64,000 bases of DNA from Candidatus Wallbacteria bacterium (GTDB taxonomy: Bacteria > Muiribacteriota > UBA6191 > JACPRK01), in contig JACQZN010000057.1 in the NCBI GenBank assembly GCA_016213845.1, positions 1 to 64,000 of the forward strand. The letters run 5' to 3'. The notes beneath the pieces are model-generated. The model was not told the origin of the DNA and ran no database searches. It was given only the letters and a program-made list of their open reading frames with translations. Below, one piece after another: positions 3,066-29,186 of this stretch (within the stretch, counting starts at the first letter, position 1; each line of letters begins with the position of its first letter). The translations under genes were made by a program, and so were the position numbers.

Positions 3066-3704
3066 TCACGGCACCGAAACTGGGTTCCAGTACGGATCGA
3101 GCTGCCGGCGCGAGTAGGGCTGCAGCGCCGCGCTGGTCACCAGCTCCCGCGTCAGCTCGCCCACGCGAGCGCCCAGCTCGATCCGCACGAGCAGCGGCGC
3201 GTAGGCCGCGTGCATCCGGGTCGAGTAGTCGAGCATCGGAGCCTCCAGCCGGCAGGTGTAGAGCGTGAACCGCGCCGACGTCAGCGCCACCGAAACCACC
3301 TGCTCGGTGGTGCCTGTACCGGGCGGAGAGCCGCCGCCCGGCAGAGGTCCCAGCCGCCGCAGCAACCTGGGCGGGTTGGAGGCCGCATCAAAGCTCCAGC
3401 GGCACTCCGCCAAGCCCGGCCTGCCAGCTCCGCCGCCCGCCAGCGCCCGAGGAAACGTCATCCCCAGCCCGCCGGCGCCGATCTCGATGGCCCGGCCGGA
3501 CTCCGCGTCGATGTAGGCCGCCCTCAGGTCGGCGCGCACCCGCGACACCACCAGCTCCAGCTCCTGCGCCATCGATGCCTCGGCATCGCCTCGGGCCACA
3601 CCCGTCGAGCTCAACCGCAGGACGTCGAACACCCCGGCGAGGACGATCGAGAGGATCGCCATGACGATCATCAGCTCGATCAGCGTGAAGGCTCGCCGTC
3701 TCAC
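3066..3704 (-). CDS. GspJ/PilW-like minor pseudopilin (cassette A)
   Basis: This 212-residue protein starts with GTG at 3704, overlapping the upstream stop (GTGA). It begins VRRRAFTLIELMIVMAILS, a prepilin leader of four or five residues, the F-T-L-I-E motif with Glu at +5, and a hydrophobic N-terminal helix. The residue before the cleavage site is Ala rather than the usual Gly. The C-terminal domain is beta-rich and contains Cys residues. By family, such proteins are processed by a prepilin peptidase and join the tip complex of a type II secretion pseudopilus or type IV pilus. It lies directly after the GspI-like gene, the usual order in secretion operons. GspJ versus PilW cannot be decided from sequence alone. 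Confidence 0.85.
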   Translation of the reverse strand: MRRRAFTLIELMIVMAILSIVLAGVFDVLRLSSTGVARGDAEASMAQELELVVSRVRADLRAAYIDAESGRAIEIGAGGLGMTFPRALAGGGAGRPGLAECRWSFDAASNPPRLLRRLGPLPGGGSPPGTGTTEQVVSVALTSARFTLYTCRLEAPMLDYSTRMHAAYAPLLVRIELGARVGELTRELVTSAALQPYSRRQLDPYWNPVSVP

Positions 3705-4228
3705 GGGCCTATCATCCTCCAGAGTCGTACCGATCGCACCGCGTCCGGGCCGCGGCTCGGCTCCAACCACGCCACTGTCACGGTGAGCTTCAACATCGGA
3801 ACCTGCGGCTCCGGTGACGCGTCGGTCACCTCGAGCCTGCGAAAGAAGCGACCCATGTCGGCCGGGTAGCGGTACGTGTCCTGCGCGAACGCCGGCGCCA
3901 GCACCGACGCGCCTTCGACCAGGTAGGCCTGCTTGAGCGTCTCCACCGGCATCTCCTCGACCACGATCGGCCCCCGCAGGCCGTCGGTCGGCAGCGTCGC
4001 GCCCCATTCGAGCGCCTCGATTGCCAGGTTCCGCGCCACCATCTCGTTCCAGCTGGCGGCGATTCCCTGGCGGCTGGAGACCAGCAATCCGATGGCCGGC
4101 ACCGCCATGACGACCACGATCGCCCCGACCAGCACCGCCTCGACCAGGCTCAGTCCGCGCGCGGCACGCCCTCCCCGCCTCGGGCCCACTTGCCCGTTTC
4201 TCGCCTTTCGATTCTCGATCCTCTTCAA
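3701..4228 (-). CDS. GspI/PilV-like minor pseudopilin (cassette A)
   Basis: The 175-residue product has a basic leader followed by ARG then LSLVEAVLVGAIVVV: Gly at -1, Glu at +5 and a hydrophobic helix, the class III prepilin pattern. The TTG at 4228 overlaps the stop of the PilX-like gene (TTGA), and I take it as the start. The leader is unusually long, about 25 residues. Part of it (IENRKARN) is translated from four heptanucleotide repeats at 4196-4223, so the N-terminus may have been extended by repeat DNA. It sits between PilX-like and GspJ-like genes, with overlaps on both sides. A role as a minor pseudopilin in the tip complex is likely. Confidence 0.82.
   Translation of the reverse strand: MKRIENRKARNGQVGPRRGGRAARGLSLVEAVLVGAIVVVMAVPAIGLLVSSRQGIAASWNEMVARNLAIEALEWGATLPTDGLRGPIVVEEMPVETLKQAYLVEGASVLAPAFAQDTYRYPADMGRFFRRLEVTDASPEPQVPMLKLTVTVAWLEPSRGPDAVRSVRLWRMIGP
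4196..4223. repeat. Four heptanucleotide units inside a pseudopilin leader
   Basis: Plus strand units gtttctc, gcctttc, gattctc and gatcctc follow each other exactly every 7 bases. The gattctc unit is the complement of the gagaatc unit in the arrays at 12956 and 24994. Here the array is translated as part of the leader of the GspI-like gene. Confidence 0.6.
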
Positions 4229-5535
4229 GGCGCCTCCGAAACGGTCGCAACCGGGTACTGCGCCATCGAGAAGCCATACGCCGCCGGCTCGGAGTCGCCT
4301 GAGCCCGGGACGATGGCCCTGTCACCCGGATTCGAGGGAGCCCGGTAGCTGCCTGCCGCGCGCCCGTTGAAGCAGAGCGGATCGTACACCAGCACGGCCT
4401 GGAAGATGCTGCTGGGTATCGCGGAGGCGATGCACCCGTGCACCTGCATCTTGACGGTCCCACCCGTCGGCTCCACGAGCGCGCGCTCCCCCATTGCCAC
4501 CAGAGACGCCTCCACGGGCCTATCGTCGGCGCGGATGACGCGGTTCTTGCCCAGTGCCTGCAGCACCAGGAGCTCGTCGGTCCCCTCGGGGACCTCGCGG
4601 ACGACGCCGCCTAGGCGCACGTCTCCCGCGAAGGCGAGCTTGCCGTGCGCCCGGAAGCGGCTCCACTCGGGAAGCTCGAGCCCCTCGCCGCACATCACGA
4701 TCGCTTCCGGGAGCGCCAGCAGCGTCGGGTCGGCCTCGACGGGGTAGAGAAACCGAAGGGCCGCCGCCGCGGTCGGCAAGACGTAGCTGGCGGCGGCCAC
4801 GGGCAGGTCGAAGGCGCTCGCCTGCACTAGCGGCTGGAAGGAGTCGGCCATGGCGGGCTCGTCCATCAGGACGAAGCTGGTCACCTTGGCCTCGAGCGGA
4901 TCCTCGGGACCTTCGTCGATGTTCACGTGCGAGAGCACGTCGCCCAGCTGGCGGGCCTCCATCCCACCCAGGCCCCCGATGAAGTACTTCACGCGGTCGC
5001 TCGGCACGGGCGGCCGCAGGTTGGAGAGCCGGCAGTCGAAGTACTGGACGATCAGCCGCTCGGCCAGGTCCACCTTGGCTCGGGCTTGGAACCGCACCTG
5101 CCCCAGGTAGGCGCGGTCGTAAGGCCAGTCGAGCGAGATCTCGTCGGCGCCGCGGCGCACCTTGCGGCGGGTGTCGACGATCCGCACGGCCACCGGCTCC
5201 ACGGTCTGGGTGGGCCATGCCGGCCCGGCGGCGGCCTCGGCCTTCGCGCCTTCCGCCACGATCGGCAGCGAGCCAGCGGTCGGGTCGGCCGTGCGAACGA
5301 AGTCGAAGGCCGGTGTGCCCCTCTGGTTCACGGTTCCGAGGAACCTGAGCCGGGCCTCCTCGATCGCGGAGAGCGCCAGCACCTCGGCTTGCTGCCCGAA
5401 CCGGCTGCGCCGCGAGAGTGTGCGGAGCGTTTCACTCCTCTGGTACAGGATGAGCACGAGCCCCAAGGCGCTGATGATCACGAACAGCGCGATGAGCATC
5501 GCGCTGCCGCGGCCGTCGAATCGTCTGGAGCGCAT
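4225..5535 (-). CDS. PilX/GspK-like large membrane-anchored protein (cassette A)
   Basis: This protein of about 436 residues begins MRSRRFDGRGSAMLIALFVI, a short basic leader, then one membrane helix and a helical stretch rich in Arg and Glu. That is the usual N-terminus of PilX and GspK proteins. I chose the ATG at 5535; the frame stays open upstream, but the extra 54 residues look non-coding. The long C-terminal domain is beta-rich and has no catalytic motif I recognise. It overlaps the GspI-like gene by 4 bp, so the two are co-transcribed. GspK-type proteins cap the pseudopilus tip. Sequence similarity to the other large cassette proteins is limited mainly to the head region. Confidence 0.7.
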   Translation of the reverse strand: MRSRRFDGRGSAMLIALFVIISALGLVLILYQRSETLRTLSRRSRFGQQAEVLALSAIEEARLRFLGTVNQRGTPAFDFVRTADPTAGSLPIVAEGAKAEAAAGPAWPTQTVEPVAVRIVDTRRKVRRGADEISLDWPYDRAYLGQVRFQARAKVDLAERLIVQYFDCRLSNLRPPVPSDRVKYFIGGLGGMEARQLGDVLSHVNIDEGPEDPLEAKVTSFVLMDEPAMADSFQPLVQASAFDLPVAAASYVLPTAAAALRFLYPVEADPTLLALPEAIVMCGEGLELPEWSRFRAHGKLAFAGDVRLGGVVREVPEGTDELLVLQALGKNRVIRADDRPVEASLVAMGERALVEPTGGTVKMQVHGCIASAIPSSIFQAVLVYDPLCFNGRAAGSYRAPSNPGDRAIVPGSGDSEPAAYGFSMAQYPVATVSEAP

Positions 5536-5629
5536 CGGTGTTCGGCGGACCCGGAGTGACCGTGACAGGCTCAGCCGCTCGCCTGGTAGCTGGACATCGG
5601 GCGCGTGGCCGTTGTGGCCCGTGAGCGCG

Positions 5630-6958: not shown

Positions 6959-6972
6959 CGCGACCTCCCTCG

Positions 6973-6990
6973 GTCATACTCCAGTATGAC
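6973..6990. promoter_or_regulatory. 18-bp palindrome in divergent promoter region
   Basis: The sequence gtcatact, cc, agtatgac is perfectly symmetric apart from the CC centre. It fills the middle of the 61-base gap between the divergent C39-like gene and the plus-strand membrane-protein gene. Each arm contains a -10-like hexamer (catact or tatgac), so it could be a shared operator or a pair of overlapping divergent -10 boxes. Confidence 0.5.
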
Positions 6991-7019
6991 TCCGATTGGA
7001 GCTTTCGGCAAATCCCCTG

Positions 7020-10109: not shown

Positions 10110-10149
10110 CGTGCTCTCCTTCTCGGGACCGGTTGCCCGGGCGATCCGT

Positions 10150-12915: not shown

Positions 12916-12955
12916 CGGCACACTCCAGTGTCGTGAGCGGAGGATACTCCAGGGG

Positions 12956-12990
12956 GAATCGAGAATCGAGAAGCGAGAAGCGAGAATCGA
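12956..12990. repeat. Heptanucleotide array (GAATCGA-type, 5 units)
   Basis: The units gaatcga, gaatcga, gaagcga, gaagcga and gaatcga lie in exact 7-base register about 40 bases upstream of the M16 start. The unit is a rotation of that in the 24994-25028 array. Confidence 0.8.
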
Positions 12991-13041
12991 GGACACAGAA
13001 GTCGCGCTGTGATGAGCCCATCCCCTGCCTCCCCCGCCCAT

Positions 13042-13060
13042 ACTGAGCCTGTCGAAGGAC
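13042..13060. repeat. REP-like palindrome fragment
   Basis: actgagcctgtcgaaggac belongs to the widespread intergenic TGAGCYTGTCGAAGG family. Further members are at 25145-25173 and 25204-25230. It lies between the M16 gene and cassette B. Confidence 0.6.
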
Positions 13061-13069
13061 CCGCCGCGA

Positions 13070-13096: not shown

Positions 13097-13120
13097 ATTT
13101 CCCTGGGCCTTTCCGGGGGG

Positions 13121-13951
13121 TCAGAAACGCGTGTCTTCGTCCTGGGAGCTGAAGTACTCCTTGTAGACGTGATCGTTGATCCGCTTGTAGGACCAGATCT
13201 TCGTCATTACTTCGATCTCGGGCTGCTTCAGACGATCCTTGTAGAGCCCCTCGTCGAAGAGCGCCTTGAAGTTGAGGACCACCATCGCGACCCGCGCCCT
13301 CTTGAGCGCAATGGTCCGCGCCGTGATTGTCGAGAACTCCTTCAGCCCCCCGTCCGCGTCGTCGTCATAGGCGAAGTAGCTCAGGTTGAACGCCTTCACC
13401 TTCGTGGCCATCACGCGTCCCTCGGCGGGCTCCCCGGGCTCGCTCCTCTCGTCGGCCAGGCTGAACTCCGCCATCCGCAATAGGTTGTCGCCTAGCGCGC
13501 CGGTGAGCGGCGTCTTGCTCACCAGCGTGCCGCGCGTGACCTTTCTCAGCACGCGCTCCGTGTTCTTATCCCACTTGTAGGAGCACCGGAAGACCGGAAG
13601 CACGTGCTCCGTCACCTTGCCGTCGGTGAAGAAGGGGTACGTGAGCAGCCCTTTCTCCACGTTCATCCCGGCGACCACGTCCGGTTTGTCGGTCTGGTAC
13701 TTCAGGATGGTGAAGTTGTCGGCCGCCACGAAGGCGAACATGTGGCAGGTGTTGACGTCGCGCACCATGTTCTCCACGAGGTTGCGCGCGCCTTGCTGGA
13801 TCTGGATGCTCTTGCTCGAGGAATCGGCCAGCTCCATCGAACGCGTCAGCATGTAGTACACGACGCCCAGCAGGACGATGGCGATGGCCGAGACCAGCAG
13901 CGTCTCGATCAGGTTCAGGCCCTTGCGGTCCCTCGTCTTTCGCGCTCTCAT
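13121..13951 (-). CDS. GspJ/PilW-like pseudopilin (cassette B)
   Basis: The ATG at 13951 overlaps the stop of the GspI-like gene (ATGA) and gives 276 residues. The leader MRARKTRDRKG is followed by LNLIETLLVSAIAIVLLGVV: Gly at -1, Glu at +5 and a hydrophobic helix. The C-terminal domain ends with TKIWSYKRINDHVYKEYFSS and an acidic tail. Almost the same ending is found in the cassette D protein, so the two are paralogues with a conserved C-terminal signature. At this length it is larger than a typical GspJ of about 200 residues. It is probably a minor pseudopilin of a cassette-specific tip complex. Confidence 0.82.
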   Translation of the reverse strand: MRARKTRDRKGLNLIETLLVSAIAIVLLGVVYYMLTRSMELADSSSKSIQIQQGARNLVENMVRDVNTCHMFAFVAADNFTILKYQTDKPDVVAGMNVEKGLLTYPFFTDGKVTEHVLPVFRCSYKWDKNTERVLRKVTRGTLVSKTPLTGALGDNLLRMAEFSLADERSEPGEPAEGRVMATKVKAFNLSYFAYDDDADGGLKEFSTITARTIALKRARVAMVVLNFKALFDEGLYKDRLKQPEIEVMTKIWSYKRINDHVYKEYFSSQDEDTRF

Positions 13952-14460
13952 CGGACGCGATGGTCTCCTATCAGCGTGTGGAAGCGCGAGAGCGCGGTTC
14001 GATGTCCTGCGCCCCCCTCTTCCTCGCTCTTGCCCATCTCCTGCCACCGGACCTGCAGCAGCACCGCGTAGAGCCGCGGATTGGCGGGGGCCGCCACGTC
14101 AGGGTCGACATCCGCGGCCGACGACACGCTCAGCTTCGTCTCGATACGCGCATACTCCTCCGGGTAGTTGAGCGTGGGCCCCTTCGCCTCGGGGTCGCCC
14201 GGAGCGGTGACGCGCCGCAGCACGGAGCCCGTCACGGCCTCCCAGTCGTGGCGCATCTGGATCAGCTTTGACGGCGGCAGCTGGCGCAAGGCCTCCAGCT
14301 CTTCGCGAGCCGCGTGCAGGGCCATGTACGAGATGCGGCTCCGGAAGATCGACTTGGAGCTGCCGGTGAAGAGGAAGTACATCGGCACGAGCGCGCCGGC
14401 CAGGATCAGCGTCGTGATGACGACCTCCACCAGCGAGAACGCGCCGTGCCGCCGCCTCAC
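13948..14460 (-). CDS. GspI/PilV-like pseudopilin (cassette B)
   Basis: The 170-residue protein begins MRRRHGAFSLVEVVITTLIL, a seven-residue leader, the F-S-L-V-E motif and a hydrophobic helix. Ala occupies the -1 position. The stretch ALHAAREELEALRQLPPSKL after the helix and LLQVRWQEMGKSEEEGGAGH near the end are both closely matched in the cassette D protein. It overlaps both neighbours by 4 bp. Its compact leader is probably the ancestral form, since the cassette D paralogue has a leader of about 60 residues made of repeat DNA. A role as a minor pseudopilin in a type II secretion-like or pilus-like fibre is likely. Confidence 0.83.
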   Translation of the reverse strand: MRRRHGAFSLVEVVITTLILAGALVPMYFLFTGSSKSIFRSRISYMALHAAREELEALRQLPPSKLIQMRHDWEAVTGSVLRRVTAPGDPEAKGPTLNYPEEYARIETKLSVSSAADVDPDVAAPANPRLYAVLLQVRWQEMGKSEEEGGAGHRTALSRFHTLIGDHRVR

Positions 14461-15392
14461 TTGGAGCCCCCCATCCCGACGTCCTCGAGCTGCGTCAGCG
14501 CCTCCTGCAATGCGTCTGCCGAGATGCGTCCGGCTTCCTGCTCGCGCAGGAGCCCGGCCTTGATCTCGCTTTTCTGCCGTTCCGAGAGCTTCTTCACCGA
14601 TCCGGTCTCTGCCACCTGCTGCTGGATCTGGTCGAAGTACTGGTCGAACTCGCCGCGCTTCTTCGACAGCTCCGTCTGGCGCGACTGGATGGCCTCCGCA
14701 TCGCGCTTGTCCTCCATCATCTTCGAGGCCGCCTGGATCGACAAGATCTTCTCCTCGCCGTCGAAGAGCTGCTTCATCGTTTCACGATACTTCTCGAGCT
14801 GCCCCGAGTCGAAGTAGAGCTGCTGCAGCTTCATCCGCAGCCGCTGCATGTTGATGAGGTCGCGCGGGTCCGCGGCCGCCATCAGCTCGAGCAGCAGCTT
14901 CTCGGCGTCGTCGTAGGCCCCCTTGGACATCAGCCCGTCGACCTGGCCGCAGGTATCGTCCACGGCCCGGTCGTCCATCGAGCGCACTTCCATTTCGATG
15001 AACTCCTGGCCGTACCCCTGCGACGCGAGCCGCTTGCGCTTCAGGTCCATTTTCTCTTCCATCGTCGGCGGACCCTGGACCTTCGAAACGCGCGAGTAGA
15101 TCGAGTCGAAGTTGGCCTCGGCCACCGACCGATCTTGCGCGGAGCTCGAGGACGAGGAGGACGACGGCATGCGGCGCGTGTGGATGTCGCGCACGGTGAC
15201 CTCGGGCTTTACGGAAGAGCGCTCGATCTGGGCCGTGGCTCGGCTGTAGCTGCCAGGCCCGCCCATGTCGCTGGTGCGCTGAACGGTACCCTTCATCATC
15301 GAGCCGATGTCGAAGTAGAGCCCGAACATGAACAGGATCAGCAGCGCGAACAGGATCAGCGTGCCGAGGAAGACTTTTTCGAGGTAGCCCAT
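14457..15392 (-). CDS. Membrane-anchored MGYLEK protein with SHOCT-like C-terminus (cassette B)
   Basis: The 311-residue protein starts MGYLEKVFLGTLILFALLIL, one N-terminal membrane helix with almost no leader. A Ser-rich stretch (residues 76-83, eight serines) and a helical TPR-like middle (YDDAEKLLLELMAAADPRDL) follow. The end, KAGLLREQEAGRISADALQE and onward, resembles a SHOCT motif (L-x-x-x-x-x-G-x-I-S). The cassette D protein at 26018-26827 shares the same start, helix, TPR-like segment and ending. It lies 4 bases after the PilX-like gene and overlaps the GspI-like gene. It may be an inner-membrane assembly factor for the cassette. I know of no named family with this architecture. Confidence 0.7.
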   Translation of the reverse strand: MGYLEKVFLGTLILFALLILFMFGLYFDIGSMMKGTVQRTSDMGGPGSYSRATAQIERSSVKPEVTVRDIHTRRMPSSSSSSSSAQDRSVAEANFDSIYSRVSKVQGPPTMEEKMDLKRKRLASQGYGQEFIEMEVRSMDDRAVDDTCGQVDGLMSKGAYDDAEKLLLELMAAADPRDLINMQRLRMKLQQLYFDSGQLEKYRETMKQLFDGEEKILSIQAASKMMEDKRDAEAIQSRQTELSKKRGEFDQYFDQIQQQVAETGSVKKLSERQKSEIKAGLLREQEAGRISADALQEALTQLEDVGMGGSK

Positions 15393-15396
15393 CGGT

Positions 15397-17640
15397 CTAG
15401 AAGGGAGCGAAGCCGCCGTCCGCCGTGTCGCCGCCGCCGATCGTGCCGCCGCTGGAGACGACGAACTTGTCGGAGATGACCGCTATCTTCGGCGTCACGC
15501 AGACGGTCAGGTAGTTCTCCCGATTGTACTGCCCGCCCAGAGTTTCGTTGGTGAGGCGCGGCTTGTCGTAGAGGATCTCCAGGCTGCTGCCGTCCGGAAT
15601 CTTGTCCTTGTTCAACGCCAGACAGACCAGGCTGCCCTCGACCGCGGTCTTCGGCCCCATCGGCTTGATCCCGCCGGAGACCATGAACGTCGCCTCGTTG
15701 GCGTGGCCTGCCTCGGGCATCCCCAGCTCCAGCATGCCTTCTTCGGACGTCGGTTCCGCTTGCGACATGAAGGCGAGCGTCAGGTAGCTGTCGAGCCCGA
15801 ACTGATCGGTGGTGTCGCGCATCACGCCATTGGGAAGCGTTGCCTTGGCCGCGTTGGCGCCGCTGGTGAAGCAAGCGACGATCCCCTTGCCGCGATACTT
15901 CAGAGTCTTGTCCAGCTCCATCTTGTCCACCATCATCACGCCGTCCAGGGTCAGCGGCTTGTCATCGGTGGGCATGGCCTCCTTGAGCGAGGGGTAGATG
16001 CGGGAGGCGCAGCGGGGATACGGCTTGAAGTTCGGCGGCCAGTAGCCGTCCTCGGAGATCTTCAGAAGCTCGTCGGCGCTGATTCCAACGGGTGGAAGTG
16101 CGGTAGGAGGATTGAGCATGCTGGCCAGCGCCTGGGCACCCATCGCCTGCAAGCCTACCTTCCCGATCTCCATGGCGATCGCGCCCGCGCCCATGTTGGC
16201 GAAGGCGCCGGTGGCAGCGCCGAAGCCGAGCGTGGCGATACTGATCACGTCGATGATCGTGCTCAGCAGGCCGCCCGAGCCCTGGCGCTTCTTCTCGTAT
16301 CGAATCCCGAACGGGCCGTAGATGGGCTTTCCGGCGTCGACCTCGACCTTGTAGCCCTTCATCTTCACGAAGAAGAGCTTGAACTCCCAGGAGCTGAAGC
16401 GGGCCACGTTGTAGGTCCCGATCAGCCCTTCACCTTTCGGCTCGCAATAGATGACGTCGCCTTCTGCCCCAGCCCCGCCCATCAGTGGTCCGATGCCCTC
16501 GGTGTAGGCCACGGGCGCTCCTTGTGGCCGGCCCTTCTCGTCCTCCTTGCCCTTGAGGCCGCGGAAGCCGTGCCACTTGCCGGAGTTCGGGTCGCCGAAG
16601 ATGCTGAAATTAGTGGTTCCCCAGGGCACCGTGCCGATGTACCAGGCGTCTCCGTTGGCGATCGACATCCCCGGGTCGCCGCTGCTTTCGAAGCCCAGGA
16701 AGTTGAGGCTCAGCTTGAAGCTTGCGCTCTTCTTCTTGGGACGGCCCGGATCGCGGCGGTTCCAGCTGCCGTTCTCGAGCCCCTCGTGGTAGACCGGCAG
16801 GAGCGACCAGTCCCACCAGTTGCCCGTATCCAGGATGGTAGCCTTGGCCTGGTCGCCCGGCGGCTTGCTGCCCCCGATTCCTTCGGTGTTGTCGCCGATC
16901 GTCAGGAAGTAGGGCCCCCGGATGAAGATGCGGCCGACGTCGTTGGCGTAGATGTTCATCGGGCCGCCCTTGACCAGGCAGGTCTTGAGGTAATCCTCCT
17001 GGTCGGCCTTGAACACGTTGAACGCGAACGTCGCGAACTCGCGCGCCGGCGGCGACACGTCGACGACCTTCAAGTCGTGAACGACGCTGTAGTAGCGCAC
17101 GGCCTTGCCGAACCGGACAGCGGCCTGAATGCGGTAATAGCCCGTGAAGTCCCGCGGCTTCAATTGGCTACCCGGCGCCGTGACGGGCTCCGTGTCGAGG
17201 TCGGTCTTGTGGTAGTAGACCTTGTCGACGTCGTAGGTGTCCTTGGTGGCGTACTTCATCGGCCGGAATCCCATGAACACGACCTTGGCGTCGATAAGCT
17301 CGCCCTTCACCTGGGTGATCGCCGTCTTCATGTCGAGCGGCTCGTCCTTGAGCGGCTTCTCCAGCGTGCCCAGCCCGGCCGCCGTCTGCAGCACTTCCTT
17401 GCGCCAGAGTGCGGCGTTCGGATCGACGTTGTTGACCCGGTCGTAGACGATTGCCTGGATCTCGTCGACCAGCCCCAGCACGAGCTGATTGGCCACCAGC
17501 CCGTGCGTGACGACCGCAGTCTGCTGGTACTCGCTCGTGCCCGAGAACATCATCGTCATCCCCACGATGGCGAAGATGATGAGCGCCGTGATCGCGACCG
17601 GAAACATGAATCCGCCGCGCGCCGATCGGAAGAAGGTCAT
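15397..17640 (-). CDS. Large PilX-like membrane-anchored protein (cassette B)
   Basis: The 747-residue product starts at the ATG at 17640, with GAGGTGA four bases upstream. The head (FMFPVAITALIIFAIVGMTM) is a membrane helix like those of PilX proteins, followed by helical FSGTSEYQQTAVVTHGLVAN. The remainder is beta-rich, with a Gly/Ala-rich patch near residues 480-520 (FGAATGAFANMGAGAIAMEI). The motif TLKYRGKGIVACF and the preceding LTLDGVMMVDK recur in the cassette C and D proteins, and RIFIRGPYFL recurs in D. It resembles cassette D's 782-residue protein along its length. It is probably the tip or cargo component of cassette B. No enzyme motif is seen. Confidence 0.72.
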   Translation of the reverse strand: MTFFRSARGGFMFPVAITALIIFAIVGMTMMFSGTSEYQQTAVVTHGLVANQLVLGLVDEIQAIVYDRVNNVDPNAALWRKEVLQTAAGLGTLEKPLKDEPLDMKTAITQVKGELIDAKVVFMGFRPMKYATKDTYDVDKVYYHKTDLDTEPVTAPGSQLKPRDFTGYYRIQAAVRFGKAVRYYSVVHDLKVVDVSPPAREFATFAFNVFKADQEDYLKTCLVKGGPMNIYANDVGRIFIRGPYFLTIGDNTEGIGGSKPPGDQAKATILDTGNWWDWSLLPVYHEGLENGSWNRRDPGRPKKKSASFKLSLNFLGFESSGDPGMSIANGDAWYIGTVPWGTTNFSIFGDPNSGKWHGFRGLKGKEDEKGRPQGAPVAYTEGIGPLMGGAGAEGDVIYCEPKGEGLIGTYNVARFSSWEFKLFFVKMKGYKVEVDAGKPIYGPFGIRYEKKRQGSGGLLSTIIDVISIATLGFGAATGAFANMGAGAIAMEIGKVGLQAMGAQALASMLNPPTALPPVGISADELLKISEDGYWPPNFKPYPRCASRIYPSLKEAMPTDDKPLTLDGVMMVDKMELDKTLKYRGKGIVACFTSGANAAKATLPNGVMRDTTDQFGLDSYLTLAFMSQAEPTSEEGMLELGMPEAGHANEATFMVSGGIKPMGPKTAVEGSLVCLALNKDKIPDGSSLEILYDKPRLTNETLGGQYNRENYLTVCVTPKIAVISDKFVVSSGGTIGGGDTADGGFAPF

Positions 17641-20103: not shown

Positions 20104-20163
20104 CAGTTCACTCTGTCCTCGACGCGACGGGACTCGGCTGGACGGATGGCAGGGAGGACGCAC

Positions 20164-20191
20164 GCCTTCCACCTTCCACCTTCCGACTTCT
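20164..20191. repeat. Heptanucleotide array (CTTCC type, 4 units)
   Basis: The units gccttcc, accttcc, accttcc and gacttct lie in exact 7-base register in the gap between two cassette C genes. The same unit dominates the array at 25260-25329. Confidence 0.7.
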
Positions 20192-20195
20192 CCCA

Positions 20196-21056
20196 CTACG
20201 GCTTCCGCAACGCCGGCGGCGGCTCCATCCCCACGTAGGTAGCCCTCTCGTCGCGCGTCATGTCCACGTACACGCCCAGCTTCTTGCCACCGGCCTTCAC
20301 GTGCGCCTTGGAGATGTCGTCCTCGCGGACCTGGTCCATCTTGAACCGCAGGACCCGCCTCAGCGGCAGGCCTGTCGCTGCGTCGACCGTGCACGAGAAC
20401 TTCCCGGCCGCAGCCGTGCTCATCAGCTTCTCGGGCGTGTACTGCCGCGACAGCCGCAGGTCGCCTCGGATCTCGTGGGCGTCGCGCTCCAGGTACTTGG
20501 TCGGGCCCGCGTAGGCCAGCCGGGCCTGCAGCGCCACCGGCGGCGTGTCGGGTCCCGTGGCCAGGCGCAGCTCCTGCTCCCACGTTGCACCGCGAGACAG
20601 CTCTCCCGTGGGCAGCTGGATCGCCAGCTCGCGCAGGTCTCCAGCGACCACCTCGGGGTCGGAGGATCTCAGGAGCTGCCCGTCGGGGGAGTAAACCCTC
20701 AGCTTCATGTCGCCAGCGCCCGGGAGAGTTCCCTGGCGGGCCTGCCCGTTCACCTTGAGCGCCGACTGGACCTGTTTGGAGGCGATGCGGATCTGCCCCT
20801 CCTCGACGTCCATCACGCGCCCGACCTCGCGCGAGCCGGCCTCCAGAGTCTGGGTGAGCACCGACCGCGGCTTCACGATCGTCGTCTCGGTCGTGGAGCG
20901 GAGGACCCTCTCGAAGCAGAGCCCGGCCTGGGGGCGAAGAGACAGGGGCTCGGCCACAGCGGCGCCCGCCAGCAGCCAGAGTGCGGCCAGGGCGACTGCC
21001 AGTCGCCACAGCGGGGGCCGCGCCCGCCCGATTCCGGTAGAGCTCGAATCATCCAT
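20196..21056 (-). CDS. Exported beta-rich protein of unknown function (cassette C)
   Basis: The ATG at 21056 overlaps the end of the large PilX-like gene by 8 bp and gives 286 residues. Basic residues and then LAVALAALWLLAGAAVA form a signal peptide. The mature protein is beta-rich, with segments such as GDMKLRVYSPDGQLLRSSDP and a late FKMDQVREDDISKAHVKAGG. It has no cysteine pair or catalytic motif that I recognise. It lies between the PilX-like and GspI-like genes, the position held in cassettes B and D by the MGYLEK protein, although no sequence similarity to that protein is visible. A periplasmic or outer-membrane accessory role for cassette C is a reasonable inference. Confidence 0.7.
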   Translation of the reverse strand: MDDSSSTGIGRARPPLWRLAVALAALWLLAGAAVAEPLSLRPQAGLCFERVLRSTTETTIVKPRSVLTQTLEAGSREVGRVMDVEEGQIRIASKQVQSALKVNGQARQGTLPGAGDMKLRVYSPDGQLLRSSDPEVVAGDLRELAIQLPTGELSRGATWEQELRLATGPDTPPVALQARLAYAGPTKYLERDAHEIRGDLRLSRQYTPEKLMSTAAAGKFSCTVDAATGLPLRRVLRFKMDQVREDDISKAHVKAGGKKLGVYVDMTRDERATYVGMEPPPALRKP

Positions 21057-22980
21057 CGATGTACTCCTTGGGGCCTGAGCCGTCATCGCCCCGGCTGCTC
21101 CAGAGCATGACACGATCGCTGAACGTGGTGTGGAAAATCCAGCGCGACAGCAGTTCGTCGTATTGCAGGAAGTTTCGAGTGGCGCGCAGCTTGCTCGAGT
21201 CGATGCGGTCGATGGCCAGCCCGCCGACGAGGTCGATGGGCTGATCGTCGTAGACCTCGAGCGTACCCATCTGGTCGGGATAGAGCGAATTCAAGGCCTG
21301 CACGTGCGCCTCGACCTTCTTGCCGCCCGGCAGCGTTACGCCCGCGCCGCGCGAGACAAGGAAGAGCTGGTCGGTGGGCCGCCGCTTGGTGAGCGAGCCC
21401 TTCACGAAGATCTTGCCGAGCGCCAGCAGCACTCCCTGACCGCGGTAGGAGAGGTCTCCGTCGAGGATGAGATCGCCCAGCAGCCCAACGACGCCGTCGA
21501 TGGCCAGCACTCGCTTGCCCGCCGAATCGGCGACCAGGTGCCTTTCCATCAGCCGCGCGGCCGGGTCGCTATCCTCCGGGGTGGATTGGTACAGCCGGGC
21601 ATAGTACTTCGGTTCAGTGAAAGCCATCGCCGAGAGAACGGCCGCCGCCTGTCCATCTCGCCCCCCGAAATCGCCCAGGGCCGGGGCGTGCGCGAACGGG
21701 GCCATGGTCTGGTCACTGCCGTTCGGGTCCTTGTTGAGGAAGCTCACGGCACTGACGCCCACGGGCGCCGCCAGCGCGGGCCGGGAGGGAGGCGATGCTC
21801 CGTCGAAGGTGAAGTCGAACTCGCGGCGGAACCAGTAGGAGTAGAAGATGTTCCCCTCGATGCCCTTGCCGGGATCGTTCAAGTAGAGGTCCAGGCCGGC
21901 CGCCCGAGCGTCGCCGCCCAGGTACTCGTGGTGCATCTTGGCGTTGACGACCTTGGCCGCGACGGCGGCGGCCTGCGCTTCGCCGTATCCCATCGCGCGC
22001 ATCATGTCCCCGATGATGGCCCGGGCCTTTTCCTGCCCCATGTCGTCGTCGCTGAAGAGCTGCTTCTGCTGATCCCACTTCCCGAGCTGGTAGCGCGCCG
22101 GGTTCGTCGGTGACAGGGCGATCTTCACGCCCTGCAGGTAGCTGATCTCGTCGGCCACCAGCCGGTTGCGGCCCGGTGCCAGCAGGTTGATCGGGGCCGT
22201 TGCGGCCTGTCCTGGCCCCAGGCCGATGAAGACCGCGCCCGAGTCCTCCTTCGGAGTGGCAGGGACGCGCCGGTTCTTGACCACCAGCGCCGGGTCGTTC
22301 GGATCGGCGTTGCCGGGCTCCAGCGACCGCAAGCGGCTGGCGTCCTTGAGGAACAGCGTGTAGTCCCCCAGGGGACTCTGGCCCGTGAGGTAGATGCTCT
22401 TGAAGTCCCGCCGGACGATGACGCGGCGCGTCAGAAACCCCTTCCGGCCCAGCGGCAGCACGGCCTTCCCCTCGACCTCGACACTGCCGACCTTCTCGCG
22501 AGGCTCGGCCCCGGTGTTCTGCGCCAGCACCAGCACCCGGGCGCGCGCGCTCAGCACGGCCCCCAGCTCCTGCGCCAGCTCGCAGCCGGAGGCCGTGAGC
22601 GAGTTGGCGTTGAGCCCTTCGAGCTCCTCGAGCTTGTTGTTGTCGGCCGGCGTGGCGTCCTGGAACCGCCCGTACCAGGGCGAATCGGGCCGGTTCACCT
22701 CGCCCTGGATCGCCGTCAACGCCTCATCGGCGATCGACTCGGCCAGGAAGAGCGCCATGTCGCCCACGTAGGCCCGGCTCACCTCGAGCTTGCCCTGCAT
22801 CGTCGTGGTGTGGAACGTCAGGATCACGACCGCCAGGATCAGCGCGATGACCAGCGCCAGCACCAAGACGATGCCCGAGCGGCCGGGCGCGGCGGGCCTA
22901 GCGCCTTGCTCCCATGCTCGTCGCGCCGCTGCAGCGCCCGGCTGCTGCCACGCCCTATGCCCGAATCGCCACGCTCCCAC
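21049..22980 (-). CDS. PilX/GspK-like large membrane-anchored protein (cassette C)
   Basis: The frame gives up to 643 residues from a GTG at 22980; the start is uncertain, because the helix lies about 35 residues in. GRSGIVLVLALVIALILAVV is the membrane helix, followed by a helical region (YVGDMALFLAESIADEALTA) typical of PilX N-termini. The central part is beta-rich. Near residue 500, VLAIDGVVGLLGDL and LSYRGQGVLLALGKIFVKGS match a motif found in the cassette B and D proteins and known from PilX C-terminal domains. It starts cassette C and probably provides the tip protein. No secretion ATPase is nearby. Confidence 0.7.
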   Translation of the reverse strand: MGAWRFGHRAWQQPGAAAARRAWEQGARPAAPGRSGIVLVLALVIALILAVVILTFHTTTMQGKLEVSRAYVGDMALFLAESIADEALTAIQGEVNRPDSPWYGRFQDATPADNNKLEELEGLNANSLTASGCELAQELGAVLSARARVLVLAQNTGAEPREKVGSVEVEGKAVLPLGRKGFLTRRVIVRRDFKSIYLTGQSPLGDYTLFLKDASRLRSLEPGNADPNDPALVVKNRRVPATPKEDSGAVFIGLGPGQAATAPINLLAPGRNRLVADEISYLQGVKIALSPTNPARYQLGKWDQQKQLFSDDDMGQEKARAIIGDMMRAMGYGEAQAAAVAAKVVNAKMHHEYLGGDARAAGLDLYLNDPGKGIEGNIFYSYWFRREFDFTFDGASPPSRPALAAPVGVSAVSFLNKDPNGSDQTMAPFAHAPALGDFGGRDGQAAAVLSAMAFTEPKYYARLYQSTPEDSDPAARLMERHLVADSAGKRVLAIDGVVGLLGDLILDGDLSYRGQGVLLALGKIFVKGSLTKRRPTDQLFLVSRGAGVTLPGGKKVEAHVQALNSLYPDQMGTLEVYDDQPIDLVGGLAIDRIDSSKLRATRNFLQYDELLSRWIFHTTFSDRVMLWSSRGDDGSGPKEYIDG

Positions 22981-24194: not shown

Positions 24195-24226
24195 TCGCCC
24201 GAGCCAGCCCCGCCCCCTCCCCGCCT

Positions 24227-25102
24227 TCAGTACCGCGCGTCTTCGTCGGCGCTCGAGAAGTACTCGCGGTAGACCTGGTCGCTCAGGCGCTTGTAGGACC
24301 AGATCTTCGTCGCCAGCTCCACCGTCGGGGTGCGGCGCGTGCCGGTCGAGTAGAGACCCTCGTCGAAGACGGTCTTGAAGCGCACCAGCAGGAACGACGT
24401 CTTCTGGTACTTCGGCTCGGAAAGCTCCTCCACCGGCACGGGCTCCCCTGACGTGGTGTAGCCGCAATGCGTCACGCTGAACTGCGCCACGCTGGTTGCC
24501 ACTACCTTCTCGTAGACCTTGCTCGTGTCCTTCAGCTCCAGCTTCGTCAGGAAACCGCGGCTCGTCTCCTCGTCGGCGCTCGACAGCGTCGCTTTCTCGA
24601 CCACCCGCGTCACTTCCTTCTTCGCCTCGTCAAAGGTGTAGGTCGTGCGCAACACGGGCAGCACGTCGGCGGTCTGACCCTCCGTCTCGGCGAACGGGAA
24701 GGTCGGACGCGGGTTGAGCTTGGGCCGGTCCTTGGCGTCCGGGCTCAGGTACTTCAAGATCGCCACCGATGCCGTCGTCGATCCCGGCGGCTCCATGAAC
24801 ACGTGTGCGCTGTTCACGTCCTCGACCAGGTTCTCCAGCAGGTTCCTCGCCCCCGTCTGGAGCTCCAGCGATCGTGTCGTCTCGTCCGTGAGCGCCACGG
24901 ACCGCGTCAGCAAGCTATAAACGGCGCCCAGGATCAAGAGCGCAAGGAACGCCGTGAGCAGGGCCTCGGTGAGGGAGAAGCCGGCGCGGGAGTATCGAGA
25001 ATCGAGAATCGAGAATCGAGAATCGAGACGACGAAGCCGCCTCCCTCTCCCGGCGCCAACCCTCGCTGGCCGGGCCGCTCTTCTTCGCTTTCCATCCTCC
25101 AC
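24227..25102 (-). CDS. GspJ/PilW-like pseudopilin with repeat-derived leader (cassette D)
   Basis: The mature part begins at FSLTEALLTAFLALLILGAV, with Gly at -1 and Glu at +5. The last 26 residues (TKIWSYKRLSDQVYREYFSS plus acidic tail) closely match the cassette B paralogue. The start is unclear. The frame is open to a GTG at 25282, and an internal GTG at 25102 gives a 41-residue leader; I list the latter. The leader just before the site (RFSILDSRYSRAG) is translated from five copies of a 7-base repeat at 24994-25028, and farther upstream the frame crosses two REP-like palindromes. The paralogue has an 11-residue leader, so repeats have probably invaded this leader while keeping the frame open. 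Confidence 0.7.
   Translation of the reverse strand: MEDGKRRRAARPARVGAGRGRRLRRLDSRFSILDSRYSRAGFSLTEALLTAFLALLILGAVYSLLTRSVALTDETTRSLELQTGARNLLENLVEDVNSAHVFMEPPGSTTASVAILKYLSPDAKDRPKLNPRPTFPFAETEGQTADVLPVLRTTYTFDEAKKEVTRVVEKATLSSADEETSRGFLTKLELKDTSKVYEKVVATSVAQFSVTHCGYTTSGEPVPVEELSEPKYQKTSFLLVRFKTVFDEGLYSTGTRRTPTVELATKIWSYKRLSDQVYREYFSSADEDARY
24994..25028. repeat. Perfect heptanucleotide array (ATCGAGA, 5 units)
   Basis: Five identical atcgaga units lie head to tail inside the leader-coding part of the cassette D GspJ-like gene. Confidence 0.9.
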
Positions 25103-25144
25103 CGGGTGCACGCACGGAAGGTGAGAGGGCGCATCACACCGTGA

Positions 25145-25230
25145 CCGTTCGCCCTGAGCTTGTCGAAGGGCGGGCAGGCGAGAACCCACTCTGAGCCTGA
25201 ATTGTGGTTCGACAAGCTCACCACGAACGG
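25145..25230. repeat. Pair of REP-like palindromes in opposite orientation
   Basis: Copy 1 (25145-25173) reads ccgttcgccctgagcttgtc and on to aagggcggg. Copy 2 (25204-25230) reads gtggttcgacaagctcacca and on to cgaacgg. Each has a short stem (GCCCT/AGGGC and GTGG/CCAC). They are inverted to each other, about 30 bases apart, a common REP doublet layout. Confidence 0.75.
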
Positions 25231-25259
25231 GACAGTGACCCAAGAACCGCGCGCGCACC

Positions 25260-25329
25260 CTCTTCCACCTTCCCTCTTCCACCTTCTACCTTCTACCTTC
25301 TACCTTCTACCTTCCATCATCCAGCTTCC
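25260..25329. repeat. Heptanucleotide array (ACCTTCT type, 10 units)
   Basis: Ten units in strict 7-base register run from ctcttcc through four accttct copies to agcttcc. On the minus strand the unit reads AGAAGGT, which imitates a ribosome-binding site just upstream of the open GTG at 25282. The array ends 3 bases before the GspI-like stop. Confidence 0.85.
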
Positions 25330-25331
25330 TG

Positions 25332-26021
25332 TCACGGCGATGCCGGGACCGGCACGTTGTGCGCGGCCACGATCGTCTCGAAGCGCGACAGAGCGGCGCG
25401 CTGGCCGGCGTCGCCTTCCTTGGGCGCCTCGCCCATCTCCTGCCAGCGTACCTGCAGCACGACCTTGCGCAGCCTGGCGTCGGGCGGGTCGACCTCGCTC
25501 ACTTCCAGCTTCGTCTGGATGCGCTCGTACTCCTTGGGATAGCTGTGGGCCTCCGTGTCCAGCTTCGACGTGACACCCTCCGGCACCCGATACTTCAGCG
25601 ATCGCGCCAGCATCCGGCCGCTCACGGGCGCCCAGTCGTGCGCCAAGTCACCGCCCGCAACCTTCTCGAACGGGAGCTGGCGCAGCTCCTCCAGCTCCTC
25701 CCGGGCCACGTGCATCGCCATGTACGACAGCTTCGAATAGAACATCGTCCGCGAAGACGTCACGAACATCTGGTAGAGAGGGATGATCGCCAGCGACAGC
25801 AGCAGCACCCCCATCAACAGCTCCACCAGGAAGAAGGCGGACCGGAGGCGAGCCGCAGGCCGTCCTTCGACACGGCCGCTCCGCGGCCTGCTCAGGATGA
25901 GCGGAGGAGGCATCGCGTCTGAGGCTTGCGCCCTGAGGCCGGCGCCTGCCCAACGGAGCCTCCGCCCCCGAAGACTGCCGCCTGACCCCTGAAGCCTGAC
26001 CCCTGAAGCCTGACCCCTCAT
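25332..26021 (-). CDS. GspI/PilV-like pseudopilin with long repeat-derived leader (cassette D)
   Basis: The ATG at 26021 overlaps the stop of the MGYLEK gene (ATGA) exactly as in cassette B, giving 229 residues. The mature start is SA then FFLVELLMGVLLLSLAIIPL, with Ala at -1 and Glu at +5, at about residue 62. The downstream part (AMHVAREELEELRQLPFEKV and LQVRWQEMGEAPKEGDAGQR) closely matches the cassette B paralogue. The leader is about 61 residues instead of seven. It is translated from a 7-base repeat array (25981-26022) and a REP palindrome (25859-25905). An internal ATG at 25913 would give a shorter leader of about 25 residues. It is unknown whether such a leader is still processed. Confidence 0.75.
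   Translation of the reverse strand: MRGQASGVRLQGSGGSLRGRRLRWAGAGLRAQASDAMPPPLILSRPRSGRVEGRPAARLRSAFFLVELLMGVLLLSLAIIPLYQMFVTSSRTMFYSKLSYMAMHVAREELEELRQLPFEKVAGGDLAHDWAPVSGRMLARSLKYRVPEGVTSKLDTEAHSYPKEYERIQTKLEVSEVDPPDARLRKVVLQVRWQEMGEAPKEGDAGQRAALSRFETIVAAHNVPVPASP
25859..25905. repeat. REP-like palindrome inside pseudopilin leader
   Basis: cgtccttcgacacggccgct and on to ctcaggatgagcgg contains a perfect hairpin ggccgc, tcc, gcggcc (25874-25888) flanked by TTCGACA and GCTCAGGA motifs of the same REP family. It is translated as part of the cassette D GspI-like leader. Confidence 0.65.
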
Positions 26022-26022
26022 T
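25981..26022. repeat. Heptanucleotide array (CCTGACC/CCTGAAG, 6 units)
   Basis: Units cctgacc and cctgaag alternate and the array ends in cctcatt, all in 7-base register. It covers the start codon of the cassette D GspI-like gene at 26021. Confidence 0.85.
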
Positions 26023-26827
26023 TCAACTGCTCCAGCATCTGCTCCATCTCTTCGGCGGTGATCTTGCCTTCCTCGCGGGCCTTCAGCAGCCGCGCCTTCA
26101 TGTCGGCCCGAGCCGCGTCATCCAGTGGCGGCGGCTTGCTCGGCGAATCCTTCTCCCGGGCGGCCTCGGCCGCGGCGGCACTGTACTCCCGGCCCCCAGG
26201 CGCTCGGGCCCGGATTGCCAGCACGCGCTCGGCGACCTCGGCCAGCCGAGCGCTGGTCCGCTCGAGCTCTTCGGTCTTGCCTGCCAGATTGTACGCTTCA
26301 GCCAGCGCCAGCAGCAGATCCCGCATCACCAGAAGGTTCCTGGCGTCCAGCGACCGCAGCGCCTCCTCGAGGGCGGCCGCCGCTGTCTCGTGGTCCTTGG
26401 CTCGGTTCAAGGCCCCCACTCGCACCATCAGCTCTCCGAAGGCCGCGCGATCGTGTCCCAGCGATTCCATCTCCAGCAGCTCGCCCTCCAGTCCTTTGGC
26501 CTTGAGCCGCTCCCGCCACCAGCCGATCGTCTCCTCAGGGGTCATCTTGGGCGGGGTGAACGTGTAGAGACGGGCCAGCTCCGTGGCGCTGCCGGGCAGC
26601 CCGAACTCGCTGTTGCTGGCGCTGTGCGGCATGATCTCGATTGGCCGTGCCACGCGCTCCATCGCCGCGCGGGTGTAGGCGAACTCGCCGACCGAAAGGA
26701 GCGGGTCAGTCTGCTTGCTCGTTCCCAGGAGCATCTCGTAGAGGTCGAAGTACATCCCGAAGAAGAAGAGCACGATGGAGAGAAACATCACCATCGTTCC
26801 CAGGAACAGCTTCTCCAGGTATCCCAT
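26018..26827 (-). CDS. Membrane-anchored MGYLEK protein with SHOCT-like C-terminus (cassette D)
   Basis: This 269-residue paralogue of the cassette B protein begins MGYLEKLFLGTMVMFLSIVL, one N-terminal helix. A linker is followed by helical TPR-like segments (TAAAALEEALRSLDARNLLV and ALAEAYNLAGKTEELERTSA). The end, MKARLLKAREEGKITAEEME, is a SHOCT-like motif. It lies 10 bases after the PilX-like gene, and its stop overlaps the GspI-like start. Conservation between B and D at the start, TPR-like segment and C-terminus suggests a dedicated inner-membrane component of these cassettes. It may link the pseudopilin complex to a cytoplasmic partner, though this is inference from topology. Confidence 0.72.
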   Translation of the reverse strand: MGYLEKLFLGTMVMFLSIVLFFFGMYFDLYEMLLGTSKQTDPLLSVGEFAYTRAAMERVARPIEIMPHSASNSEFGLPGSATELARLYTFTPPKMTPEETIGWWRERLKAKGLEGELLEMESLGHDRAAFGELMVRVGALNRAKDHETAAAALEEALRSLDARNLLVMRDLLLALAEAYNLAGKTEELERTSARLAEVAERVLAIRARAPGGREYSAAAAEAAREKDSPSKPPPLDDAARADMKARLLKAREEGKITAEEMEQMLEQLK

Positions 26828-26837
26828 CTTCGGCGCC

Positions 26838-29186
26838 TCAGTGCTCCGGCCGGTCGTACCAGCCCGAGAGCCGCGGACTGACCGCTATGACGTGCCAGCT
26901 ACCGTCTCCGAACTTGGCGTCTGCCGCGTCGTCGGCCCCGGGTAGCACCGTCGTGTTGTAGTGCACGTTCAGTTTGGCCTTCGCCGGGATCTTCGACTTG
27001 TTCGGGAACCCGCAGACGTAGTTGCCGGCGATCTCGACCGCGTTCTCCTTGGGACGCGCCCCCTGCAAGCTCATGACGGACCCGTGGATCACGGACCCGG
27101 ACGCGTCGCCGACTTCCGGCACGAGGACGAATTCGATCTGGTGGTCACCCAGATGCGACTTGCCCTTCTCATCCTTCAGGTAGACGAGCGTGAGCCAGTC
27201 GTCCTTGTTCGTCTTGGGGTCCTGCCCCGCCGGCATCGCCGGGACAATCGGCAGGGACACCTTCACGCCCTTCACGTCACTGGCGATGGTGGAGCGCCCG
27301 TCGCTGACCAGCACACCTCGCCCCTTGTAGGCGAATCCGGTTTCGGTCGTCAGGTCGTCGGCCCAGACCACTCCGTCGAGCACCAGCGGCTTCTTCGTAT
27401 CCTTGGCCGGGATGACGCCCTTGAGGCTGGCGTAGCGCCTCGTCGCCAGCATCTCGAACGGCCGGTACCCTGGCGGGTAGGTGCTGGTCACGTCCGTCGG
27501 CTTCACACCCGACAGGTCGAGCGGCGGCGTCGCCCCTGCAAACGGCCGCAATCCGAGCGACTCCACCGTCCCGATCGTGATGGCCGCGCCCACGACTCCC
27601 AGCAGCCCGAAGCTGGCCACGGCAACCAGGTCGCCCACCGTCGCATCCCACCAGCTCTCGGTGTAGGACTTCTCCCAGCGGTAGCCGTAGTTGGTGCGCG
27701 TCTTGTCGGGCATCACCGTGACGTTGTACTCCTCCTTCACCAGGTACGATGTGCCTCGGTCGAACTTGATCCGGTTGTACTCGCCGATCAGCCCACCTTC
27801 GGCCTCGATGGAGTAATTGACGTCTTTTTCGGCGTCCGTGTCCGGCTCCACCCAGTACGCCTTGTCGGGGCGCTGCCACTTGAGCGACGTCCCGACCACC
27901 TCGCGCTTGTCGGTGTACTTTGCGAGATGGCCGACGAAGGGGCTGAAGCTGTCCGGCTGCGCGGCCTCGGGCTCGCCCACGAGCGAGAAAGCGCTCGAAT
28001 CAGTCTTGTCGAAGGCGCGCGACCCGGCATACCACTGCGGCTGCTGGCTCCCCACCTTGATGTACCAGCCGGCATCGTTGAAGAGCCAGACGTCCCGCAA
28101 GGCCGAGCCGACCAGGGAGTTCACCGCCTGCACAGGGCTCGGGCGCCAGTTGGAGGTTTGATCGGGCCGGCGCGGCGTAACACCGAAGTTCACCAGCATT
28201 GGACCCGCTCGCTCCATGATGCCGTCCCGGATGGAGGGAATGGCCGACCAGCCGTGCCAGTTCTGGCGCTCGGTCTGCCCTTCCTCCGGCGGGTAGCTCT
28301 CCGAAGTCGGTGGCGCCTTGCCGCCGGCCCCCGAATCGACGTCTCGTGCCTTGATCAAAAACGGCCCCCGCATGAAGACCCGCCCCGAGCCAGCCGCGTA
28401 CACCTTCAGCCCCCCGCCTTCGTTCAGGTCCTTCTGGCCGTAGTCCGGCGGCGGCCCGCCGTTCTCGGTGGCAGCGCTGTAGTAGCTGAAGAGGGCGAAC
28501 TGCCGGGCCGGCGGGCTGACGTCGACGATCTTCAGGTCGTGCGTCTGGGTCAGCTCACGCGTGATCTTGCCGTACTTGGCGCGCACCTTCACGGTGTAGT
28601 AGCCGACGAAATCCTCGGGCGTCTGGAGCCCTGCAGTGTCGAACTTCTGAAACGGGTCCCGGTAATACTCCTTCTCGGAGCCGAAAAGGCCAGCCGAGGT
28701 GTACTTCACGCGCTTGAAGCCGTAGAAGCGGACCTGCGCCAGCTGGATCTCCCCGCGGCTGGCAGCGGCCAGCGCCACGGACCGTTTCACGTGCCCGTCG
28801 GCCAGCAGGTTGATGGGGCTGTCGACGTCGCCGCTGTCGTTGAGCCCGACCTTGTTGCGAATCGCCTTGAGCAGGTCCGCCCGCGGCTTGGGCGGCGGCT
28901 GCACCGGGGAGTTGAAGAGGTCATAGAGCGCGGCCTGGGCCTCCTCCTGCGCCGCCAGCGCCAGCTGCTGGGCGCGCAGACCGTAGACAACCAGCGCCGA
29001 CTGCGAGTAGTCCGACGTCCCGGTGAACAGCACCGCGATCCCGAGGATGGCCATGACGACCATGCAGATGAGCACGATCGGCACGACCTGACCGTCGCAC
29101 CGCCCGCGGACAAGGCTCCGGCCCCGCGGGGCATACCCGGCGCCACGGAGAACGTTTCTCTCACCGGTGGCGCGCTCGGTAGCCAT
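26838..29186 (-). CDS. Large PilX-like membrane-anchored protein (cassette D)
   Basis: The ATG at 29186 follows GAGGAG with good spacing and gives 782 residues. An unusually long basic leader of about 33 residues precedes the helix VVPIVLICMVVMAILGIAVL. FTGTSDYSQSALVVYGLRAQ then matches the cassette B head. The beta-rich body shares GRVFMRGPFL, LVLDGVVWADDL and FAYKGRGVLVSDG with the B and C proteins. A Gly/Ala hydrophobic patch (FGLLGVVGAAITIGTVESLG) sits at the same relative place as in B. It begins cassette D, 8 bases after the HEAT-repeat gene, so all five genes form one operon. It is probably the cassette's tip or cargo protein. Confidence 0.72.
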   Translation of the reverse strand: MATERATGERNVLRGAGYAPRGRSLVRGRCDGQVVPIVLICMVVMAILGIAVLFTGTSDYSQSALVVYGLRAQQLALAAQEEAQAALYDLFNSPVQPPPKPRADLLKAIRNKVGLNDSGDVDSPINLLADGHVKRSVALAAASRGEIQLAQVRFYGFKRVKYTSAGLFGSEKEYYRDPFQKFDTAGLQTPEDFVGYYTVKVRAKYGKITRELTQTHDLKIVDVSPPARQFALFSYYSAATENGGPPPDYGQKDLNEGGGLKVYAAGSGRVFMRGPFLIKARDVDSGAGGKAPPTSESYPPEEGQTERQNWHGWSAIPSIRDGIMERAGPMLVNFGVTPRRPDQTSNWRPSPVQAVNSLVGSALRDVWLFNDAGWYIKVGSQQPQWYAGSRAFDKTDSSAFSLVGEPEAAQPDSFSPFVGHLAKYTDKREVVGTSLKWQRPDKAYWVEPDTDAEKDVNYSIEAEGGLIGEYNRIKFDRGTSYLVKEEYNVTVMPDKTRTNYGYRWEKSYTESWWDATVGDLVAVASFGLLGVVGAAITIGTVESLGLRPFAGATPPLDLSGVKPTDVTSTYPPGYRPFEMLATRRYASLKGVIPAKDTKKPLVLDGVVWADDLTTETGFAYKGRGVLVSDGRSTIASDVKGVKVSLPIVPAMPAGQDPKTNKDDWLTLVYLKDEKGKSHLGDHQIEFVLVPEVGDASGSVIHGSVMSLQGARPKENAVEIAGNYVCGFPNKSKIPAKAKLNVHYNTTVLPGADDAADAKFGDGSWHVIAVSPRLSGWYDRPEH

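Follow-up and report, generated by a model that had tools for sequence, protein, structure and literature searches.

Interchangeable pilus tips were not demonstrated until recently, and then in a predatory bacterium, Myxococcus xanthus, which carries four: Kil Tip1-4, paralogous minor-pilin trios (KilL/KilM/KilN, homologues of TadE/F/G) on one Tad pilus (PMC12075869). In the same species, the minor-pilin/PilY1 clusters 1-3 serve one type IVa pilus (T4aP) machine (PMC7541494), and the principle of one machine with several tips is already known there. Modular tip pilins are widespread (PMC8179133); ComZ of Thermus thermophilus (PDB 6QVI/6QVF with PilA2), a GspK-like pilin, has a large inserted module and binds a GspI-like partner, and a position at the pilus tip has been argued for it (PMC6561018). 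We describe here four minor-pilin cassettes, A to D, in the first 64,000 positions (the window) of a 126-kb contig (JACQZN010000057.1, C31) of a Candidatus Wallbacteria metagenome-assembled genome (MAG) from groundwater (6.23 Mb, 84% complete). We favor, at somewhat better than even probability, the reading that every cassette specifies an alternative tip (priming) complex, to be mounted on a shared type IV filament machine whose genes lie elsewhere. If this is true, an uncultured groundwater lineage applies the idea seen in Myxococcus with different pilins and on a much larger scale, and could be used to study how a single filament machine chooses among many tips.

The cassettes contain a GspK-like protein (X), a PilV/GspI-like protein (V), a PilW/GspJ-like protein (W), and, in two of them, a membrane-anchored TPR protein (M). 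Like the Kil tips, they are several paralogous three-pilin cassettes in which one large member has a variable distal module; the Kil tips are interchangeable on one shared filament, as those encoded here may be. The Kil tips are of TadE/F/G type, belong to a Tad pilus, and occur in Myxococcota only, whereas here V and W are of PilV/PilW (GspI/GspJ) type, X is GspK-like, and M is added. Membership in the Tad/Kil group was rejected, as Pfam and NCBIfam scans gave no TadE/TadF/TadG-type match. The Myxococcus PilY1 clusters are alike in providing several minor-pilin cassettes per machine (presumably also the case here) and in a PilX that lacks the glutamate at position 5 (Glu5) of the prepilin motif, but comprise FimU, PilV, PilW, and PilX with a separate PilY1, whereas here X is large and no PilY1-type match was found among the scanned cassette and neighboring proteins. 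ComZ resembles X in being GspK-like and in having a GspI-like partner, and X may share its large inserted module; the similarity of X is weak, however, and X is not known to bind DNA or to have a solenoid module. The GspI-GspJ-GspK tip of the type II secretion system (T2SS) corresponds in its three roles, to judge from the motif and from weak profile matches, and differs in that here there is no gsp operon, X reaches 436-782 amino acids (aa) in the window and up to 1,078 aa in relatives, and there are many copies per genome.

The Verru_Chthon cassette (TIGR02596, TIGR02599, TIGR02600) is a multi-gene set of a large protein and prepilin-type proteins. W gives sub-threshold matches to its proteins C and D, the best window match to protein C (TIGR02599) scoring 24 bits (E = 2e-5), where the cut-off is 256. 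Verru_Chthon membership was rejected, since protein A (TIGR02600) has no match in this genome and protein C stays below cut-off; in the phylum, TIGR02600 gives weak N-terminal matches, below cut-off, in genomes G026 and G027 only. An initial annotation of the window, made from the sequence alone, knew of no named system with this layout. That statement does not stand, as the Kil tips and PilY1 clusters share the principle and Verru_Chthon is a named multi-gene pilin cassette. The novelty lies in pilins of a PilV/PilW/GspK-like type in place of TadE/F/G, in the X and M families, in the retention across much of the phylum, and in the scale.

Genes were predicted from codon-position composition. 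The resulting models confirm the four cassettes of GspJ-, GspI-, and GspK-like genes that the initial annotation had described, all on the minus strand, at 3066-5535 (A), 13121-17640 (B), 18932-22980 (C), and 24227-29186 (D). Cassettes A and C have the order X-V-W and cassettes B and D the order X-M-V-W. The 4-bp stop/start overlaps it had mentioned are likewise real, at six junctions: TTGA at A X/V; GTGA at A V/W, B M/V, and C V/W; and ATGA at B V/W and D M/V. Short gaps, not overlaps, lie at B X/M and D X/M, and in cassette C an extra secreted gene (20196..~21086; signal-peptide-like N-terminus, no family match) separates X from V.

All eight V and W proteins carry Glu5 in the prepilin motif, and none of the four X proteins does. 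W is encoded at 3066..3704 (A, motif AFTLIE), 13121..13951 (B, GLNLIE), 18932..~19588 (C, AFTVAE), and 24227..24997 (D, GFSLTE; the start, near 25000, is uncertain, as the open reading frame [ORF] extends to 25282). V is encoded at 3701..4228 (A, GLSLVE), 13948..14460 (B, AFSLVE), 19585..~20103 (C, GFSLVE), and 25332..26021 (D, AFFLVE). In phylum-wide alignments the glutamate is invariant, at E12 in V and E11 in W. The distribution of Glu5 corresponds to the pattern of GspI/J versus GspK and also of PilV/W versus PilX; PilX of Myxococcus likewise lacks it (PMC7541494).

Profile searches against T2SS and type IV pilus families, which the initial annotation had proposed as a check, gave matches of V to PilV/GspI, W to GspJ, and X to GspK, almost all of them below curated cut-offs. 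Across the phylum, 12 of 16 V members match PilV (best, 4e-7) and the family matches GspI at 1e-5. The GFxxxE prepilin motif is recognized in 9 of 18 W members, with GspJ at 5e-4 and Verru_Chthon C below cut-off, while the sole family match of X is GspK (2e-3, in 2 of 24 members). Within the window, A_W matches N_methyl at E = 1e-9, above the curated cut-off, and gives the Verru_Chthon C match cited above; C_V aligns to the V profile by hhalign over 136 columns (E = 2e-10) and matches gspI at 0.003, and C_W aligns to the W profile at 7e-7. Searches of PDB sequences with the W and V profiles returned mainly N-terminal matches to pilins, and the X profile returned nothing relevant. An AlphaFold model of D_W (predicted local distance difference test score, pLDDT, of 78) shows a helix of 54 residues and then an antiparallel sheet, and the best-scoring PDB entry for it is the type IV-like pilin TTHA1219 of Thermus (probability, 0.95; E = 8e-3). 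The minor-pilin-like nature of the cassette proteins is supported.

X is encoded at 4225..5535 (A, small), 15397..17640 (B, 747 aa), 21049..22980 (C, 643 aa), and 26838..29186 (D, 782 aa). By hhalign, A_X aligns to the phylum X profile over about 185 N-terminal columns (E = 1.3e-7), and in C_X the profile aligns to a C-terminal "LDG..Y.G.G" segment (E = 3e-7). Lengths in the B/D type of the family range from 737 to 1,078 aa. Conservation is highest in the N-terminal ~300 residues and at 571-630 and 691-750 and lowest at ~300-570 and 631-690; such lengths and conservation are as expected for a modular pilin with a variable insert. M, encoded at 14457..15392 (B) and 26018..26827 (D), has a single N-terminal transmembrane helix and a TPR-like region, and several members of its family match TPR models. 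Neither X nor M has a curated family of its own.

The AlphaFold model of D_X (pLDDT, 68.5) contains a 59-residue helix (34-92), a sheet, a long insert, and a C-terminal strand (765-781), and its top three PDB matches are all ComZ chains of 6QVI (E = 7e-3; probability, 0.12; low TM-score). We treat this modeled likeness as a weak match and a lead. It bears on one alternative, that the cassettes encode tips for competence, like Thermus ComZ, and that each of these tips binds DNA for uptake; X with its GspI-like partner would then mirror ComZ with PilA2 (PMC6561018). DNA uptake does not need dozens of copies, however, and the X paralogues are strongly divergent (24-30% identity), which, with the weakness of the ComZ match itself, makes this explanation improbable.

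The full-length paralogy of B and D and their added membrane protein, both pointed out in the initial annotation, were borne out by phmmer (X, E = 1e-63 over 790 columns; M, 4e-28; V, 3e-44; W, 1e-43). Its grouping of A and C as a second type fared less well. The two are weakly similar to each other (W, 4e-10; V, 1e-6; X, 2e-4), and A_V is as close to D_V (8e-9) as to C_V, so that in sequence terms they form a second type only loosely. A relative, genome G029, has the same cassettes in the same order. The ratios of nonsynonymous to synonymous substitution rates (dN/dS) against it are 0.00 to 0.22 in 13 of 14 cassette genes, including 0 for A_W; the exception, 0.51 for D_V, is probably due to noncoding 5′ sequence inside its gene model. 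The secreted gene in cassette C has a ratio of 0.13. As dN/dS is low against a near relative, the cassette genes are judged real and selected rather than chance ORFs, nearly all of them under strong purifying selection. The same M protein is also found, at 98% identity, on JACPRK010000128.1, a contig of a Candidatus Wallbacteria groundwater MAG. Near D_V, the 5′ part of the D_W ORF (24998-25282) contains repeat-like sequence (VRGELVEPQ, SRFSILDSRYS). The N-terminal part of the M16 peptidase ORF at 10150-13041 has a similar stretch (77% over 13 aa), so that intergenic repeats probably lie between D_V and D_W.

Relatives were examined for the B/D type (X+V+W+M, type 1), with the phylum sampled as eight families. 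At E ≤ 1e-5, the type-1 X profile has a match in 34 of the 40 phylum genomes, which in some of them is only a weak N-terminal one. A larger X profile gives full-length or split full-length matches in families f1 to f3 and in most f7 genomes, and partial or weak matches alone in f4, f5, f6, and f8 genomes and in G009 of f7; full-length X is thus present in most genomes of four families. In 150 genomes outside the phylum, the profile never exceeds a weak N-terminal match, seen in two. By these matches the B/D-type cassette, with full-length homologues of D_X, is retained across much of the phylum, and the conservation that the initial annotation had asked of relatives is found for this type, except for full-length X in f4, f5, f6, and f8. 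Gene orders are X-M-V-W, V-W-M-X, or V-W-X in Wallbacteria, X-V-W-M-X-M in f3, and X-V-W-M in f7. The f3 order is a conserved tandem with two X and two M genes and TPR proteins nearby (L077, L078, L079). On contig C104 of the present genome (L019), a type-1 X-M-V-W set (10036-15171) stands back to back with a small X-V-W set (4733-8476), the same pairing of types as in the window.

In a tree of X, the copies from cassette D and from contigs C1 and C104 each pair with their own orthologue in G031, a genome of another family, and f3 has its own X1/X2 duplication. The G030 row of this tree, an incorrect ORF from the opposite strand, was disregarded; the true G030 X is on the plus strand of L044. 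Since the three copies each have an orthologue in another family, the X paralogues are, on this phylogeny, old and have been kept apart. The only recurrent neighbor of the cassette is a gene for a HEAT-repeat protein without an evident signal peptide. It lies directly upstream of D_X (29195..31090, minus strand; HEAT_2, E = 4e-57) and adjoins X in the G030 counterpart (L044), on G031 contig C235 (L074), and on contig C81 of the present genome (L018).

The 126-kb contig has no ATPase, platform, secretin, or prepilin-peptidase match, in agreement with the initial annotation of the window. No gspD/E/F/G gene is present on it, and none was recognized among the scanned neighbors in relatives. The f7 loci examined adjoin dapF, MEMO-AMMECR1, mnmA, or pnp and contain no machine genes and no common exported partner that could be recognized. 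The lack of machine genes nearby, together with M being a membrane protein and HEAT a frequent neighbor, would fit proteins whose prepilin leader serves membrane insertion only and which act in the envelope, never in a filament. Three co-encoded pilins, the GspI/J/K pattern, and the invariant V/W glutamate are hard to explain without assembly, and we give this possibility little credence.

In the genome as a whole, N_methyl matches number 116 at E ≤ 1, with 88 at E ≤ 0.01 and about 80 above the curated cut-off. The 116 form 72 same-strand clusters, 40 with two or more matches, so the four cassettes first noted belong to a genome with dozens of such clusters. Machine components comprise six two-domain (non-Tad) platform proteins, three Tad-like platform pairs, seven secretins, and one prepilin peptidase. 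Some pilin clusters lie inside T2SS- or type IV pilus-like machine loci (C5, C70, C133), whereas the window cassettes do not. As cassettes outnumber machines, sharing a machine is the simplest reading, and to this extent the proposal in the initial annotation of one machine serving several tips holds. Across 37 phylum genomes the N_methyl count is 30 to 137 (median, 60); across 150 genomes outside the phylum the median is 7, with up to 41 matches counted per genome, and 9 of 150 have at least 30. A large pilin repertoire thus characterizes the phylum without being unique to it. As separate observations, about 12 full-length GspE/PilB-like ATPases accompany the six non-Tad platforms, and two long frames (1,543 and 1,786 aa; G000 C28:6309-10217 and C94:30894-34973) each have three consecutive T2SSE (PF00437) matches. 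On contig C33 (L033, 7411-17570), three closely similar pilin-like genes of the GFTIIELLIVVIVIGILAAA type stand amid large multi-transmembrane proteins.

The same proposal had given each tip its own exported partner, and this part is not supported: no exported gene was found to be retained with the cassette in relatives, exported partners were dropped as cassette members, and what varies is the X pilin itself. The point also weighs on the explanation that the cassettes are T2SS pseudopilus tips, each X/V/W trio acting as receptor for exported cargo encoded next to it, with a T2SS locus as the machine. X resembles GspK, exported proteins are encoded beside A, within C, and between cassettes, and T2SS-like loci in the genome (C5, C70) include I/J/K genes of their own. 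In relatives, however, no exported neighbor was seen to accompany the type-1 cassette, nor was one recognized as common to the f7 loci, and we regard this account as unlikely, if the strongest of the alternatives.

In the favored reading of alternative tips for a shared machine, V, W, and X would assemble into a heterotrimer of pilins in which a bundle of the N-terminal helices caps or primes the filament, with V and W linking X to it. X would be a GspK/ComZ-like modular pilin, its pilin-like N-terminal part carrying a large variable module exposed at the tip, and the module would determine what the complex binds, be it a surface, a polymer, DNA, a protein, or another cell. In cassettes of the B/D type, M probably aids X/V/W assembly or loading onto the machine. 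Several points weigh against this model. Nearly all family matches are under curated cut-offs, A_W with N_methyl being above; structural E-values are just ~0.007 to 0.008, with a ComZ probability of 0.12 and low TM-scores; machine counts may be low in a MAG that is 84% complete; and some N_methyl matches are false, such as one within a 5,981-aa frame. A broader version, in which a few filament machines present tens of tips, a GspK/ComZ-like cassette retained in the phylum has multiplied in Wallbacteria into old, separately kept paralogues among dozens of pilin cassettes, and M is a new tip-loading factor, is put forward tentatively, as a conjecture that we hold to be less likely than not.

No RNA families or tRNAs were found in the window. 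Between cassettes A and B, the M16 peptidase at 10150-13041 is a two-domain protein with YfmH-like and YfmF-like halves. Directly upstream of cassette A, an exported protein (5630-6958) has a C39-like peptidase region (E = 3e-4, just under cut-off) and a Gly/Ala-rich hydrophobic C-terminus. On the plus strand, at 31156-34394, three genes appear similar to an MlaE/MlaF/MCE-type lipid transport set.

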